From an uncultured Lachnospiraceae bacterium (GTDB lineage: Bacteria; Bacillota; Clostridia; Lachnospirales; Lachnospiraceae), in the NCBI GenBank assembly GCA_902803015.1, contig CADCOL010000214.1, forward strand, positions 1 to 11,442: DNA of 11,442 nt. The letters run 5' to 3'. The translations under genes and the position numbers were made by a program. The notes beneath the pieces were generated by a model. The model saw only the letters and a program-made list of their open reading frames with translations. It made no database searches and was not told the DNA's origin. Positions 4,901 through 11,307 of the stretch are shown piece after piece (within the stretch, counting starts at the first letter, position 1; the number at the start of each line of letters is the position of its first letter).

Positions 4901-5635
4901 ATGAAAAAGTTAGTATCTGTATTATTAATGGCTTCCATGACCGGACTTCTCTTAATGAGCACCGGATGTGGCGCAAAGAAGCAGCTTGTAATGGCTACAA
5001 ACGCTGAGTTCCCGCCTTACGAATTTCACGAAGGCGATGCAATCGTTGGTATCGATGCGGAAATCGCGCAGGCAATCGCTGACGAAGTCGGTGCTGAACT
5101 TGTAATCGAGGATATGGCATTCGATTCCGTTTTGGCAGCAGTTCAGACCGGAAAGGCTGACATGGGTATTGCAGGTCTTACCGTTACCGAAGATCGTTTA
5201 AAGAACGTTGATTTCTCCAATCCCTATGCTACCGCAGCACAGGTAATCATTGTATTAAATGATTCCGATATCGCCACACCCGATGATCTTGCAGGAAAGA
5301 CCGTAGGCGTTCAGCTCGGAACTACCGGTGACATCTATGCGGATGACATCGAGGATGCAACCGTAGAGCGTTACAACAAAGGTTTTGAAGCAGTTCAGGC
5401 TCTGATCCAGGGCAAGGTTGATGCCGTAATCATCGACAACGAGCCTGCAAAGGTATTCGTTGAGCAGAACGAAGGCATCAAGATTATCGACGAAGCCTTC
5501 ACCTATGAAGAGTATGCAATCGCCGTAAAGAAGGGCAACACCGAACTTCTTAACAAGATCAACGATGCAATCAAGAAACTTCAGGATTCCGGAAAGCTTC
5601 AGGAAATCGTTGATAAGTACATCACAGCCGAATAA
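4901..5635 (+). CDS. Amino acid ABC transporter, substrate-binding lipoprotein
   Basis: A family 3 extracellular solute-binding protein that captures a polar amino acid outside the membrane and hands it to the permease encoded next. Residues 1-23 form a lipoprotein signal: MKK, a hydrophobic stretch, then MSTGC with Cys23 as the likely lipidated residue; the -3 position is Ser instead of the usual Leu. The mature part shows the family pattern ATNAEFPPYEF, GIDAEIAQAIA, LTVTEDRL (R99, expected to grip the substrate carboxylate), VQLGTTGD, and VDAVIIDNEPA with D179 expected to bind the amino group. Length 244 is normal. AGGGAG ends 8 nt before the ATG. The exact amino acid cannot be read from the sequence. 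A terminator follows, so this gene is probably expressed above the permease and ATPase. Confidence 0.93.
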   Translation: MKKLVSVLLMASMTGLLLMSTGCGAKKQLVMATNAEFPPYEFHEGDAIVGIDAEIAQAIADEVGAELVIEDMAFDSVLAAVQTGKADMGIAGLTVTEDRLKNVDFSNPYATAAQVIIVLNDSDIATPDDLAGKTVGVQLGTTGDIYADDIEDATVERYNKGFEAVQALIQGKVDAVIIDNEPAKVFVEQNEGIKIIDEAFTYEEYAIAVKKGNTELLNKINDAIKKLQDSGKLQEIVDKYITAE

Positions 5636-5659
5636 AACAGGTTTATGAATTGAAATCCG

Positions 5660-5698
5660 ATCTGCCGGATTAGGGGTGACCTCATCCGGCAGATTTTT
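5660..5698 (+). terminator. Internal intrinsic terminator between binding protein and permease genes
   Basis: A perfect 11-bp stem, ATCTGCCGGAT (5660-5670) with ATCCGGCAGAT (5684-5694), surrounds a 13-nt loop with a further 3-bp AGG/CCT helix, and leads into TTTTT. It starts 24 nt after the stop of the binding-protein gene. No good promoter is visible between it and the permease, so partial read-through probably sets the ratio of binding protein to transporter. Confidence 0.85.
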
Positions 5699-5735
5699 AT
5701 CTTTTATGCCACGCATAACAAAAAAACACATTTTA

Positions 5736-5761
5736 CGTCCGTCCGCAACAGCGGGCGGGCG
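5736..5761 (+). promoter_or_regulatory. GC-rich hairpin abutting the permease ribosome-binding site
   Basis: Bases 5736-5746 pair with 5751-5761 over 11 bp, including two G-U pairs, around an AACA tetraloop. No T-run follows, so it is not a terminator. It ends two bases before AAGGAG (5764-5769), which serves the permease ATG at 5776. It may protect the 5' end of a processed transcript or tune ribosome access; both roles are inference. Confidence 0.55.
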
Positions 5762-5775
5762 ATAAGGAGACATAT

Positions 5776-6519
5776 ATGCTTCCATTGTGGGCAGTGCCCG
5801 AATTTCTAGTAAAACTGCAGGATGACATTTACCTTAACTTCATTAAGGAGAACCGCTGGAAATACCTTGTGGAAGGTCTCGGCGTTACGCTTCGCGTGAC
5901 GTTCTTTGCGGTACTGATCGGTATTGCACTGGGCTTCCTCGTTGCAATTATCCGTTCCACGCATGACAAGGTCGGAACGGTTTCTACATTTACGAAGTTT
6001 GTGCTCGAGGTTTTGAACTTTGTTTGCAATCTGTATCTGACGATTATCCGCGGAACGCCGGTTGTTGTACAGCTTTTGATTATTTACTTCGTAATCTTCG
6101 GCTCGGTGCGAATTGACAAGGTGCTTGTTGCAATCCTTGCATTCGGTATCAACTCGGGCGCGTATGTGGCGGAAATCGTGCGCGGCGGAATTATGTCCAT
6201 CGATCAGGGACAGTTTGAAGCCGGCCGTTCGCTTGGTTTTAACTACACGCAGACCATGTGGTACATCATCATTCCGCAGACGTTTAAGAATGTATTGCCT
6301 GCGCTTGGAAATGAGTTTATCGTTCTTTTGAAAGAGACGTCCGTTGCCGGCTATATCGCACTTGCGGACTTAACCAAGGGCGGCGATATCATCCGAAGCC
6401 AGACATTCTCCGCTTATCCGCCTCTGTTGGCGGTTGCGGCAATTTACCTGTTTATGGTAATTATCTTGAGCAACCTTCAGAAACTTTTGGAGAGGAGGAT
6501 GCGTACAAGTGAAAAATAG
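5776..6519 (+). CDS. Amino acid ABC transporter permease (HisM/GlnP family)
   Basis: The membrane subunit of the polar amino acid importer. Hydrophobic helices lie near 40-60, 80-110, 115-135, 178-195 and 216-235. The family's [11 protein letters not shown] segment is at 90-100, and the cytoplasmic EAA coupling loop that docks on the ATPase is at about 148-177 (EAGRSLGF through [14 protein letters not shown]). Length 247 is slightly above average because of a short N-terminal extension. AAGGAG sits 6 nt before the ATG. The last 11 bp overlap the ATPase gene, which indicates translational coupling. Substrate is not determinable, but the full binding protein, permease and ATPase set makes an amino acid importer very likely. 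Confidence 0.94.
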
Positions 6520-7276
6520 CAAAGAAGTCGTTTTCGACGAAAACAAAGATCCTTTAATCCGTGTCGTGGATTTAAAGAAGCAATTCAAGGATTTGCACGC
6601 GTTAAACGGCGTTTCCATGGATATTTACAAAGGCGATGTCGTCTTTGTGGTAGGGCCTTCCGGAAGCGGTAAATCGACCTTTCTCCGTTGCTTAAACCGT
6701 TTGGAGGAACCGAGCGGCGGCGAGATTTTCTTTGAAGGTGTCGAGATTACGGACCGTAAGGTGGATATCAATCTTCACCGTCAGAAAATGGGTATGGTGT
6801 TCCAACAGTTCAACTTATTTCCGCACATGACGGTTATGAAGAACTTAACGAAGGCACCCATGACGCTGCAGCATAAGTCGAAGGCAGAAGCGGAAGCGGA
6901 GGCCGTGAAGCTTCTCGAACGTGTTGGCCTTGCAGACCGTGCGGATGCGTATCCGAACCAGCTTTCCGGCGGACAGAAACAGCGTATCGCGATTGTACGT
7001 GCGCTTTGCATGAAACCGGATGTGATGCTTTTCGACGAGCCGACATCGGCACTCGATCCCGAGATGGTCGGAGAGGTACTTCAGGTTATGCGTGATCTTG
7101 CGGAAGAAAAAATGACCATGGTGGTCGTAACACACGAAATGGCATTTGCAAGAGAAGTCGCAAACCGAATCGTCTTTATGGCGGACGGTCAGATTCTGGA
7201 GACCGGAACACCGGATGAGTTCTTTAATCATCCGAAAACGGAAAGACTTCAGGCTTTCTTGGAGAAGGTTTTGTAG
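6509..7276 (+). CDS. glnQ: Amino acid ABC transporter ATP-binding protein (GlnQ family)
   Basis: The cytosolic ATPase that powers the importer. All motifs are intact: Walker [10 protein letters not shown] (49-57), Q-loop [14 protein letters not shown] (Q99/Q100), signature LSGGQKQR (152-159), Walker [14 protein letters not shown] with E177, and H-loop VVVTHEM with H209. The C-terminal [23 protein letters not shown] is typical of GlnQ/HisP proteins. The start is a GTG at 6509, supported by GAGGAGG about 10 nt upstream inside the permease gene. At 255 residues it is some 12 longer than most relatives owing to a polar N-terminal extension ([15 protein letters not shown]). No terminator is visible after the stop before the next promoter. 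The symbol names the family; glutamine as substrate is not shown. Confidence 0.95.
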
Positions 7277-8506: not shown

Positions 8507-8535
8507 TTGACAATTCAAAGAGATAATGCTATTTT
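8507..8535 (+). promoter_or_regulatory. Sigma-A promoter of the T-box transcript
   Basis: A perfect TTGACA (8507-8512) and TATTTT (8530-8535) with 17 bp spacing; the transcript would start near 8542, exactly at the expected 5' edge of the T-box. The -35 box begins 10 bp after the stop codon of the preceding gene. Confidence 0.78.
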
Positions 8536-8750
8536 AACGAATAGTGAAAGGCTGTGACGAAGAAGACGCGTTCAGCATTGGTTTTCAGAGAGCCGTCGGG
8601 CGGTGCGAGACGGTAGCCGATAGGACGAGAGTTATCCCTTCCGAGCCGGGACACCAAAGGGAAGAATCCCGAGTAGATGTTCACGTACATGCTGCGTTAA
8701 AGCATAGAGCTTGTTGGAGCTTACTGAGGGCATCCTGTAAGGATGAAGCA

Positions 8751-8790
8751 TTGAGTGGTACCGCGGATTGTAGATTACGACCCGTCTCAA
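8751..8790 (+). promoter_or_regulatory. T-box sequence and antiterminator
   Basis: The conserved core TGGTACCGCG lies at 8756-8765. UGGU would pair with the acceptor end ACCA of the tRNA, implying discriminator base A, which is consistent with tRNA-Ile, Val or Tyr. The flank TTGAG (8751-8755) pairs with CTCAA (8786-8790), which is part of the 5' arm of the terminator, so the two structures exclude each other. Confidence 0.9.
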
Positions 8791-8811
8791 GAATCTTGAG
8801 ACGGGTTTTTT
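8781..8811 (+). terminator. T-box regulated terminator
   Basis: A perfect 11-bp stem CCCGTCTCAAG (8781-8791) and CTTGAGACGGG (8795-8805) with an AAT loop runs into six T residues (8806-8811). It is the off state of the T-box and, since no hairpin follows the zinc-ribbon gene, probably also ends that upstream transcript. Confidence 0.95.
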
Positions 8812-8940
8812 GCGCGAACTACAAGCGATGCGCGGATTTGACGCAAACGAAGCGATGCAAGTTTACTTGCAGTCGATTCGGAGGCGACGAAGACGCATAG
8901 CGCGACAGCGCGACACGAAATAAACGCGAAGCGTTTATGA
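8812..8940 (+). repeat. Palindrome- and repeat-rich intergenic segment
   Basis: About 130 bp between the T-box terminator and the next gene is made largely of short repeats. AAGCGATGC occurs twice (8823-8831 and 8850-8858). TGCAAG-TTTA-CTTGCA (8856-8871) is a hairpin with an additional CGA/TCG foot. AGCGCGAC is tandemly repeated (8899-8914), and its GCGC parts can pair. ATAAACGC-GAA-GCGTTTAT (8920-8938) is a perfect 8-bp hairpin. None has a T-run, so none is a terminator. No credible gene is seen here. The CG-rich character differs from nearby coding DNA and suggests a dispersed intergenic repeat element, which cannot be confirmed from one copy. Confidence 0.6.
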
Positions 8941-8997
8941 GTGACATCGTTAAACTTCTTGCCCACAGAAAGCAGCATTTTATTACAGGAGGTCATT

Positions 8998-11307
8998 ATG
9001 ACAAACAACACCGCACAACTTGAAACACAAATCCAGGAAGTCGCAAAGCGTATCAAAGCGCTCCGTGAGGATATGAACTTATCCCAGGAAATGCTTGCGA
9101 AGAAAATCGGCTTATCCGCCGAAGAGTACGCACGTCTTGAGTCCGGCGAGGAAGATTTTTCCTTTACCTTCATCTACAAGATTGCACAGGTCTGCAACGT
9201 GGAAATGACGGACTTAATGGAAGGTGAAAGTCCCGCTCTTTCCGAAGTTACCGTAACCCGTAAAGGCGAAGGGGATCAGATTGTAAGACGTGAAGGCTTT
9301 GAGTATTACCGCCTTGCACCGAAGTTTAAGAATAAGCTTGCTGAGCCGTTCTTTGTACGTATCCCGTATTCTCAGGAAGCATTGAATCCCCCTTACGAAT
9401 ATTCTACACATGTAGGACAGGAACTTGATATCGTTTTAAAGGGAAGCCTGAAAATGGTAGTCGGAGACGTTGTGGAAATCCTTCACGAAGGTGATTCCAT
9501 CTACTATAATTCCGCAATCCCTCACAATGAAATCGCACTCGGCGGCGAGGACTGCGAAATCTACGCAATCGTTATGAATCCCGATGCGAAGGGTCCTTCC
9601 AAGGTAGAGAATAAGGTTCAGAAGTTTGTAAAGACCAATGTGGACAAGGCAAACTTAAAGAACCCCGTATATGAGAAATTCGTTGAAACTACCGTCGATG
9701 AATACGGCGTGGTCAACAGCGTTAACTTTAAAAACGATGAGCACTTCAACTTTGCTTACGATGTTGTGGACGAGCTTGCAAAGAAGGTTCCTTCCAAGAC
9801 CGCGATGGTTTATGTTTCCAACGACAAGCAGTCGAGAAGATTTACGTTCTCGGATATGTCCAAATATTCGAATATGGCGGCGAACTATTTTGCATCCCTG
9901 GGAATCAAGAAGGGCGACAGAGTACTTCTTGTTGAGAAGAGACATTATCAGTTCTGGTTTACGATTCTGGGACTTCACAAACTCGGTGCCATCGTTATTC
10001 CCGCAACGCATCTGTTAAAGGATCACGATTTTGAGTACCGTTTCAATGCGGCAGGTGTTTCCGCAATCGTCTGCACCGGAACCGGTGATGTGTGCGAGCA
10101 GGTGGATGCGGCACAGAAGAAGAGCCCGACTTTGAAAATCAAAGTTGTCGTAAACGGTGAGAAAGAAGGATGGCACAACTTCGACAAAGAATTCGAGAAA
10201 TGCTCCGACCAGTTCCCGAGAACCGAAGATACTCCGGGCGGAAACGACACGATGTTGATGCTTTTTACATCCGGTACCACGGGTTATCCGAACATCGCAG
10301 CACATACTTACAAATATCCTCTCGGCCACTTCCTGACCGCGAAGTATTGGCACAATGTGGATCCGAACGGATTGCATTTTACCATTGCGGATACCGGCTG
10401 GGGCAAGGCACTCTGGGGTAAATTATACGGACAGTGGTTATGCGAGGCTGCAACCTTCGTATATGACTTTGAAAAATTCAAAGCCGAAGATATCCTTCCG
10501 ATGTTTGAAGAGTATCATATCACCACATTCTGCGCACCGACGACCATGTATCGTTTCTTCATCAAGGAAGATCTGGCAAAGTACGATTTGAGCTCGATTA
10601 AGTATGCAACCGTAGCGGGCGAAGCAATGAACCCCGAGGTATATTCACAGTTCTTAAAGGCAACCGGCGTACGTATCATGGAAGGTTTTGGACAGACCGA
10701 GACCACGCTTACCATCGCAAACTATGTCGGTGAAAACAATAAAGTCGGTTCCATGGGACGTCCTTCGCCACAGTATCAGGTGGAAATCATGCTTGCGGAC
10801 GGAACGCTTGCACCGGTCGGCGAAACCGGCGAAATCGTAATCCGTACCGAAGACGGCGTACCGAACGGATTGTTTGAAGGATATTACCTCAACGAAGAGA
10901 AGACCAAGAGTGTATGGCATGACGGTTATTATCATACCGGCGATACCGCATGGAAGGATGAGGACGGATTCTACTGGTATGTGGGCCGTGTGGACGATTT
11001 GATCAAGTCCTCCGGATACCGTATCGGACCTTTCGAAATCGAGAGCGTTATCATGGAGCTTCCTTACGTACTCGAGTGTGCGGTTGTTGCTGCACCGGAC
11101 GAAATCCGTGGGCAGGTGGTACGTGCAATCATCGTTCTGACCAAGGGCACCAAGGGTTCCGACGAATTAAAGAAAGAGATTCAGACCTACGTAAAGAGCC
11201 ATACCGCTCCTTACAAGTATCCGAGAATCGTGGACTTTGTGGATGAACTTCCGAAGACCATTTCCGGTAAGGTAAGACGTGTGGATTTGCGTAAGGAAAG
11301 CAAGTAA
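8998..11307 (+). CDS. XRE helix-turn-helix / cupin / acyl-CoA synthetase fusion protein
   Basis: A 769-residue protein with three parts. Residues 9-75 are an XRE-type helix-turn-helix (RIKALREDMNLSQEMLAKKIG, then LSAEEYARLESGEEDF). Residues about 115-195 are a cupin with possible ligand-site residues H138, E142 and H176, arranged as in XRE-cupin regulators. Residues about 245-769 are an AMP-forming acyl-CoA synthetase: A3 loop TSGTTGYPN (424-432), A5 EGFGQTET (562-569), A7 YHTGD (645-649), A8 GRVDDLIKSSGYRIGPFEIE (663-682) and A10 PKTISGKVRR with catalytic K758. The DTGWGKALWGKLYGQWLCEA segment resembles medium-chain/ACSM-type enzymes. It would turn a carboxylate, ATP and CoA into acyl-CoA, AMP and pyrophosphate; the acid is not known. 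The ATG at 8998 has AGGAGG 5 nt upstream; an in-frame GTG at 8941 has no site. The A3 loop ends in Asn where Lys is usual. A T-box controls it. No frame break supports a fusion artefact. Confidence 0.93.
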   Translation: MTNNTAQLETQIQEVAKRIKALREDMNLSQEMLAKKIGLSAEEYARLESGEEDFSFTFIYKIAQVCNVEMTDLMEGESPALSEVTVTRKGEGDQIVRREGFEYYRLAPKFKNKLAEPFFVRIPYSQEALNPPYEYSTHVGQELDIVLKGSLKMVVGDVVEILHEGDSIYYNSAIPHNEIALGGEDCEIYAIVMNPDAKGPSKVENKVQKFVKTNVDKANLKNPVYEKFVETTVDEYGVVNSVNFKNDEHFNFAYDVVDELAKKVPSKTAMVYVSNDKQSRRFTFSDMSKYSNMAANYFASLGIKKGDRVLLVEKRHYQFWFTILGLHKLGAIVIPATHLLKDHDFEYRFNAAGVSAIVCTGTGDVCEQVDAAQKKSPTLKIKVVVNGEKEGWHNFDKEFEKCSDQFPRTEDTPGGNDTMLMLFTSGTTGYPNIAAHTYKYPLGHFLTAKYWHNVDPNGLHFTIADTGWGKALWGKLYGQWLCEAATFVYDFEKFKAEDILPMFEEYHITTFCAPTTMYRFFIKEDLAKYDLSSIKYATVAGEAMNPEVYSQFLKATGVRIMEGFGQTETTLTIANYVGENNKVGSMGRPSPQYQVEIMLADGTLAPVGETGEIVIRTEDGVPNGLFEGYYLNEEKTKSVWHDGYYHTGDTAWKDEDGFYWYVGRVDDLIKSSGYRIGPFEIESVIMELPYVLECAVVAAPDEIRGQVVRAIIVLTKGTKGSDELKKEIQTYVKSHTAPYKYPRIVDFVDELPKTISGKVRRVDLRKESK

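Follow-up and report, generated by a model that had tools for sequence, protein, structure and literature searches.

The window analysed here is a stretch of 11,442 nucleotides (nt), contig CADCOL010000214.1 from an uncultured Lachnospiraceae bacterium (assembly GCA_902803015.1). Its last gene encodes a fusion of a helix-turn-helix (HTH) domain, a cupin domain and an acyl-coenzyme A (CoA) synthetase, and is preceded by a T-box leader; both lie on the forward strand, as do the parts of the leader and the gene described below. A first-pass annotation had described a full T-box with its own promoter, kink-turn, specifier loop and a terminator overlapping the antiterminator, and every one of these elements was seen in the sequence. 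The covariance model RF00230 matched the leader (8545..8792) end to end, over model positions 1-219 of 219, with 90.9 bits and an E-value of 1.6e-20. Stem I (8550..8647), placed by the RF00230 alignment and the sequence, contains a kink-turn made by the strands GGCUGUGACGAAG (8550-8562) and CUUCCGAGCC (8638-8647), the AG bulge AGAGA (8587-8591), the apical GGUG motif (8602-8605) and, at 8634..8636, the specifier codon AUC (Ile). The antiterminator (8751..8790), placed by the same alignment, includes the T-box sequence UGGUACCGCG (8756-8765); in it UUGAG (8751-8755) can pair with CUCAA (8786-8790), a pairing that forms when the leader is folded minus the 3′ half of the terminator. The intrinsic terminator, a hairpin followed by U6, spans 8781..8811. 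As CUCAA belongs to both structures, terminator and antiterminator are mutually exclusive, and the leader has both this overlap and the UGGN of a T-box. A simple terminator scan returned 0 sites; a 13-pair hairpin is nonetheless present in the minimum-energy fold of the leader, whose z is −1.92 (an equally good fold arose in 7 of 200 shuffles). A promoter-like site, TTGACA-17-TATTTT, lies at 8507..8535 (10/12 matches); the consensus scan saw three such sites on both strands, with 0.6 expected.

The T-box of this leader is UGGU, which suits a tRNA with A73, such as tRNA-Ile. In the RF00230 consensus the specifier loop usually shows an AGUA/GAA pattern; the loop of the window (8557-8641) and of its relatives does not, and it may be short. 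A compact-loop pairing script gave mixed results.

The fusion gene (8998..11307, 769 amino acids (aa)) follows a ribosome site, AGGAGG (8987-8992), and was identified by Pfam, NCBIfam and its best solved structure. Its HTH domain (aa 19-73, 9052..9216; HTH_3 PF01381, 49.6 bits) and cupin domain (aa 136-191, 9403..9570; Cupin_2 PF07883, 36.6 bits) are joined to an AMP-binding domain (aa 259-630, 9772..10887; PF00501, 197.3 bits, cut-off 29.9) and an AMP-binding C-terminal domain (aa 680-758, 11035..11271; PF13193, 80.8 bits, cut-off 24.5), the two domains of an AMP-forming acyl-CoA synthetase both exceeding their Pfam cut-offs. The first-pass annotation had recognised an acyl-CoA synthetase fusion and left its partner unnamed; this HTH-cupin part has the look of a regulatory module attached to the enzyme, and is perhaps a second, local regulator sensing an acid or an acyl ester. 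The same annotation had called the fusion the only gene after the T-box, a claim that fails because the contig ends at 11442, 135 nt past the stop codon.

The best NCBIfam model is MbcS (NF047394), at 447.7 bits far under its equivalog cut-off of 850. In Staphylococcus aureus, MbcS has its role in fatty acid synthesis; it accepts 2-methylbutyrate and isobutyrate but is poor on isovalerate (PMC10026030). Among solved structures the best match is 3etc (664.7 bits), MacsMa of Methanosarcina acetivorans, with which the window enzyme shares 288 of 526 aligned residues (55%). The preferred substrate of MacsMa is 2-methylbutyrate, and its Trp259 is critical for substrate binding (PMC10455477); this Trp and the neighbouring Gly are conserved in the window enzyme as Trp473 and Gly469.

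Elsewhere in the window, 4901-7276 encodes an ordinary-looking polar amino acid ABC transporter (binding protein, permease and ATPase). The interval from the terminator to the ribosome site (8812-8960) has a second copy, 73% identical, on contig C96 of the same genome (6580-6703), and is perhaps a small dispersed repeat.

The specifier codon and its conservation

The window's own genome (G000; other G numbers denote relatives' genomes and L numbers loci) has three further RF00230 matches: one with the codon CUC upstream of a LeuA-like gene, one with ACC upstream of a ThrS-like gene and one with UGG upstream of a TrpE-like gene. The latter two genes were named by reading and the first by models, scoring under the NCBIfam cut-off and over the Pfam cut-offs for HMGL-like and LeuA_dimer. 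From these Leu, Thr and Trp T-boxes we took the rule that the codon is followed by one base and then by a four-base arm pairing with the arm past the kink-turn. Because they fix the register, the window specifier is AUC at 8634-8636.

Homologues of the fusion were sought in one genome per species, and the best 80 of at least 584 confirmed candidates (62-94% identity) were taken as loci. A T-box core lies within 900 nt upstream in 72 of them, and RF00230 adds L071, giving 73/80; L071 was rejected as a T-box-less locus, as it matches at 75.7 bits despite an altered core, and its leader reads AUC by eye. The DNA upstream is too short at L007, L009 and L018 (152, 3 and 132 nt), leaving 77 judgeable loci. 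Five of the 72 core-positive loci gave no separate codon: the leaders of L011, L015 and L053 are cut by the contig start, that of L042 is identical to that of L038, and L061 misses part of Stem I. Six Ruminococcus flavefaciens strains (SAb67, MA2007, Y1, ND2009, 007c and FD-1) carry the fusion behind an AUC T-box.

A codon-blind script, which seeks the paired arms with no codon imposed, was run on all DNA fetched up to then and read 101 distinct T-boxes as 85 AUC, 7 GUA, 7 CUC and 2 UGG; it overlooks some true T-boxes (L071 and the Leu and Thr ones of the window's own genome). Before HTH-cupin-synthetase fusions there are 92 distinct leaders, 85 with AUC (Ile) and seven with GUA (Val), and no other codon occurs. 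The 85 comprise the window, 67 of the 80 loci and 17 leaders from further genome searches; in five the automatic gene pick had failed or was cut, and the downstream gene was taken from the homologue scans. Throughout the 85, AUC is invariant and the flanking bases vary on both sides, the next base being C, A or G. Other codons in the specifier loop were rejected, AUC alone being constant. An alternative specifier would be GUU (Val), with the leader answering tRNA-Val instead of tRNA-Ile. In the window A follows GUU, the common specifier-A pattern, whereas C follows AUC. However, it is AUC that stays constant while its neighbours on both sides change, and the same register yields Leu, Thr and Trp codons before the LeuA-, ThrS- and TrpE-like genes of the same genome, so we regard GUU as extremely improbable.

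These data bear out the isoleucine specifier read in the first-pass annotation. Its wider interpretation is also supported, because the codon does not vary at random between genomes (85 AUC and 7 GUA among 92 leaders, the GUA copies being one HTH-cupin paralogue) and homologues without a T-box number four of the 77 judgeable, in a single clade.

A valine-codon paralogue and its substrate pocket

The seven GUA leaders belong to G060, G297, G324, G330, G336, G355 and G446. RF00230 matches six of them (71.4-104.2 bits); for the seventh, from G060, the reading comes from the arm rule alone. G297 and G355 carry both types as a tandem pair, an AUC unit next to a GUA unit, and both members have a T-box of their own. 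In a tree of the HTH-cupin part, the GUA copies and three copies without their own T-box form one clade with support 1.0.

The codon goes with a change in the substrate pocket, as counted in 84 AUC-linked and six GUA-linked complete proteins (the seventh GUA-linked protein, L158, is cut). Residue 469 is Gly in 84/84 AUC-linked and Ala in 6/6 GUA-linked proteins. Three other positions are likewise uniform in the six, with Met at 472 (Leu in 83/84 AUC-linked), Asn at 327 (His in 82/84) and Ser at 569 (Thr in 81/84). Residues 469 and 472 lie in the pocket motif TGW-G/A-KA-L/M-W, whose final Trp473, four residues after 469, is MacsMa Trp259; codons 469-473 occupy 10402..10416. At positions 327, 469, 520, 536, 569, 572 and 574 the residue of 3etc is the AUC-type one found in the window enzyme. 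A bulkier residue close to the pocket Trp would be in keeping with a substrate acid shorter by one carbon.

At L155-L157, compared with L160, L161 and L166-L168, the synthetase-domain and HTH-cupin trees conflict, as after an exchange between paralogues, and the codon-linked pocket residues are still distinct.

Operon partners, gene content and the proposed route

In some lineages the T-box unit is followed by genes for a Vor-type 2-oxoacid:ferredoxin oxidoreductase. G158 has, on one strand, an AUC unit, a CobQ/MinD-type ATPase (Pfam) and three Vor subunits, and G324 and G349 have the ATPase and VorB after the AUC unit, again on one strand. In G060 a GUA unit precedes IlvE, the ATPase and VorABC, whereas G297 has the order AUC unit, GUA unit, ATPase, Vor alpha, beta and gamma, and IlvE (VorB by model, the others by reading). 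The VorB matches scored 533.6 (the alpha subunit of G158) and 557.2 bits against a cut-off of 399, and IlvE of G060 scored 483.3 bits against 307. Most of the 80 loci have other neighbours, the Vor operon being confined to some lineages.

Several further arrangements were seen around these units. P-loop ATPases of the CobQ/MinD kind lie between synthetase and Vor, or before Vor, at L147 (2713-3384), L174 (7704-8378), L142 (2928-3674), L144 (5191-5883), L177 (4541-5254) and L184 (2708-3382). L126, L128 and L131 have Vor alpha-beta-gamma, then a separate HTH-cupin gene and an Ala469 synthetase, with no T-box found; where a genome lacks the GUA paralogue, this split form might be its source of valine. 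At L150 (1347-3017, contig C27 of G030) an acetolactate synthase large subunit (TIGR00118, 596.3 bits) follows the AUC unit, and neither IlvC nor IlvD was seen in G030 despite this neighbour. At L059 (6322-7764) the synthetase is closely followed by a gene whose product, about 480 aa long, contains an ACT domain and weakly matches metallo-beta-lactamase (20.4 bits, under the cut-off of 22.7); it is perhaps an amino-acid-gated thioesterase. The ACT-domain gene is also 3′ of the fusion in L022, L032, L034, L038, L042, L049, L060, L061, L068, L070, L073, L076 and L077.

We then compared gene content in the window's family between 12 fusion-bearing and 18 fusion-free genomes. The latter are 15 of the 20 genomes without a match (G004, G008, G012, G015 and G022 were unused) together with G056, G091 and G151, whose synthetase lacks the HTH-cupin part; G080, with pieces at 38-57%, was excluded from the fusion-bearing set. 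IlvD was found in 2/12 fusion-bearing and 18/18 fusion-free genomes (Fisher p 2.2e-6), IlvC in 1/12 and 17/18 (p 2.5e-6), and VorB in 11/12 and 0/18 (p 2.2e-7), p values that are overstated because the genomes compared are related. Vor and IlvC/IlvD are thus distributed almost exclusively of each other. One of the two IlvD-positive fusion-bearing genomes, G176, scored 357 bits, like second copies elsewhere, and the only one of the 12 fusion-bearing genomes in which VorB was not found is that of the window itself (76.75% complete). In eight additional genomes of the order that carry the fusion, IlvC was found in 0/8 and VorB in 7/8. From the 80 loci we reached 33 named fusion-bearing genomes, two of them T-box-less (L043 and L083). 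VorB was found in 30 of the 33, over the cut-off in 29; IlvD gave no hit in 20, and was above 430 bits in eight, present only at 363-370 bits in four and cut by a contig end in one. The citramalate route to isoleucine (TIGR00977) exceeded its cut-off in 0/30 genomes, fusion-free ones included, and is therefore uninformative. The Vor gene set appears to take the place of the classical route in most of the genomes tested and to coexist with it in some.

Taken together, we consider it likely that an isoleucine T-box controls an HTH-cupin synthetase activating 2-methylbutyrate for isoleucine synthesis. From sequence comparison we infer the following route. When isoleucine is short, uncharged tRNA-Ile would pair with the AUC of Stem I and the UGGU of the T-box and thereby stabilise the antiterminator, so that the terminator is blocked and the gene transcribed. 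The AMP-forming synthetase would probably convert 2-methylbutyrate to 2-methylbutyryl-CoA, which the Vor-type oxidoreductase would carboxylate with CO2 to 3-methyl-2-oxopentanoate, and IlvE would transaminate this to isoleucine. By the same route the paralogue behind the GUA T-box would turn isobutyrate into valine. The first-pass annotation had suggested salvage of a branched-chain acid for isoleucine; codon constancy, the operons and the 3etc homologue support this. The suggestion is incomplete in that valine appears to be covered as well and IlvC/IlvD seem to be replaced in most genomes tested.

The same enzyme could mainly feed branched-chain fatty acids, with 2-methylbutyryl-CoA as the anteiso primer and the T-box signalling scarcity of an isoleucine-derived primer. 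MbcS, the best NCBIfam model though far under its cut-off, functions in fatty acid synthesis (PMC10026030); HTH-cupin-free synthetases with 45-61% identity adjoin FabF, ACP or acetyl-CoA carboxylase genes (named by reading), and even the T-box unit of G103, the window's genus mate, has FabF-, ACP- and FabH-like neighbours, also named by reading. However, no T-box was found at the fatty-acid-linked synthetases in the loci scanned, the T-box units of other genomes accompany Vor and IlvE, carriers are mostly without IlvC/IlvD, and a valine-codon paralogue better suits amino acid supply. A mainly lipid role is therefore unlikely, and the acyl-CoA product may be used for both amino acid and fatty acid synthesis.

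Gene order alone gives no direction, and Vor-type enzymes are reversible, so the operons could also be catabolic, Vor oxidising branched 2-oxoacids to acyl-CoA and the ligase acting on products of amino acid fermentation. We regard this as very unlikely: a T-box raises expression at amino acid shortage, the wrong sign for catabolism, the ligase is AMP-forming and spends ATP, and carriers mostly lack the classical pathway.

Several observations weigh against the synthesis of isoleucine from 2-methylbutyrate under T-box control. The leader's score lies under the RF00230 gathering score of 93, for which reason a default Rfam scan lists nothing for the window; scores of relatives straddle this value (e.g. 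99.2 in G103 and 86.4 in G030, among the matches listed). No T-box was found by RF00230 at L043, L045, L052 and L083, L052 having only 309 nt upstream. The window residue differs from that of 3etc at 422, 472 and 484. In the synthetase-domain tree the GUA copies fall in two places, three grouping with AUC copies, which suggests later exchange between tandem copies, and Ala469 is no unique mark of valine because it is also present in Vor-linked (3/3) and acetyl-CoA-carboxylase-linked (3/3) synthetases. The partners that the first-pass annotation had pointed to, 2-oxoacid:ferredoxin oxidoreductase and transaminase, were found in relatives (Vor in G158, G324 and G349, Vor with IlvE in G060); the genome of the window itself (76.75% complete) yielded no Vor alpha subunit. 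In G103, Vor lies apart from the T-box unit, accompanied by a stand-alone HTH-cupin gene and a more distant synthetase, and the codon-blind script found no T-box there. The fusion occurs alongside IlvD above 430 bits in 8/33 genomes, including R. flavefaciens FD-1, and alongside both IlvC and IlvD in G185; in two of the 33, G209 and G228, neither IlvD nor VorB was found.

A third codon extends the picture. In the window's own genome (contig C166; L086, 1742-3157, and L169, 172-2691) a CUC (Leu) T-box precedes the LeuA-like gene, after which comes a protein joining a TIM barrel of the xylose-isomerase-like type to an AMP-forming ligase (by Pfam), an arrangement seen likewise at L170, L171, L173 and L152. 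Two Ruminococcus loci, L024 and L059, have the CUC T-box immediately upstream of the TIM-barrel-ligase fusion, a candidate isovalerate ligase for leucine, and at L070 (near 1276, reverse strand) a CUC T-box precedes a 342-aa frame matching no model. There is about an even chance, in our view, that a T-box-coordinated set replaces the classical branched-chain pathway in many gut and rumen Clostridia, with AUC-linked 2-methylbutyrate, GUA-linked isobutyrate and CUC-linked, perhaps isovalerate, ligases feeding one VorABC and IlvE. The HTH-cupin part would make the first two enzymes gene regulators too, and a single gene would then sense both tRNA charging and acid supply.

Comparison with known systems

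The requirement of cellulolytic rumen bacteria for branched-chain volatile fatty acids is long established. If the proposed route is true, the loci described here hold genes for a cross-feeding dependence important in fibre digestion, and the specifier codons, by naming the amino acid served, predict the substrates of otherwise generic AMP ligases, an assignment of ligase to acid not given in the literature covered. The claim can be tested in culture, as named R. flavefaciens strains carry the AUC T-box and the fusion. The available parts of two T-box surveys, supplements aside, make no mention of acyl-CoA, CoA ligase or ferredoxin (PMC2494555 and PMC3766115), nor of AMP-binding (PMC2494555) or paaK (PMC3766115). 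The combination of T-box and synthetase fusion was not found in the literature searched, and earlier mention in other surveys (Vitreschak 2008, Gutierrez-Preciado 2009) is possible.

The leader resembles isoleucine-specific RF00230 T-boxes in its Stem I with kink-turn and AG bulge, its AUC specifier, its UGGU T-box and its competing antiterminator and terminator. It differs from them in controlling an acyl-CoA synthetase fusion and not an aminoacyl-tRNA synthetase, a classical biosynthesis gene or a transporter, and from members over the gathering score in lying just below it. With MacsMa the enzyme shares 55% identity over 526 residues, the Gly next to GW and Trp259; the archaeal enzyme as solved is without the aligned HTH-cupin part, and T-box regulation is not described for it in the available part of PMC10455477. 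MbcS is the best model for the enzyme, and a substrate range of 2-methylbutyrate and isobutyrate is likely common to both, but the model match is far below cut-off and lacks the HTH-cupin part, and MbcS serves fatty acid synthesis. The reactions predicted here are those of rumen bacteria that convert 2-methylbutyrate to isoleucine and isobutyrate to valine (Robinson and Allison 1969; Allison and Peel 1971, cited in PMC7356843); that work is biochemistry, and genes and regulation are not given in the available part of the citing source. VorABC and IlvE are operon partners in relatives, with VorB and IlvE over their model cut-offs, whereas no such gene follows the fusion on the window contig, since the contig ends. 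The parts are thus all of known kinds, and what is newly added is the codon-matched valine paralogue, the pocket change, the Vor/IlvE operons and the distribution against IlvC/IlvD.

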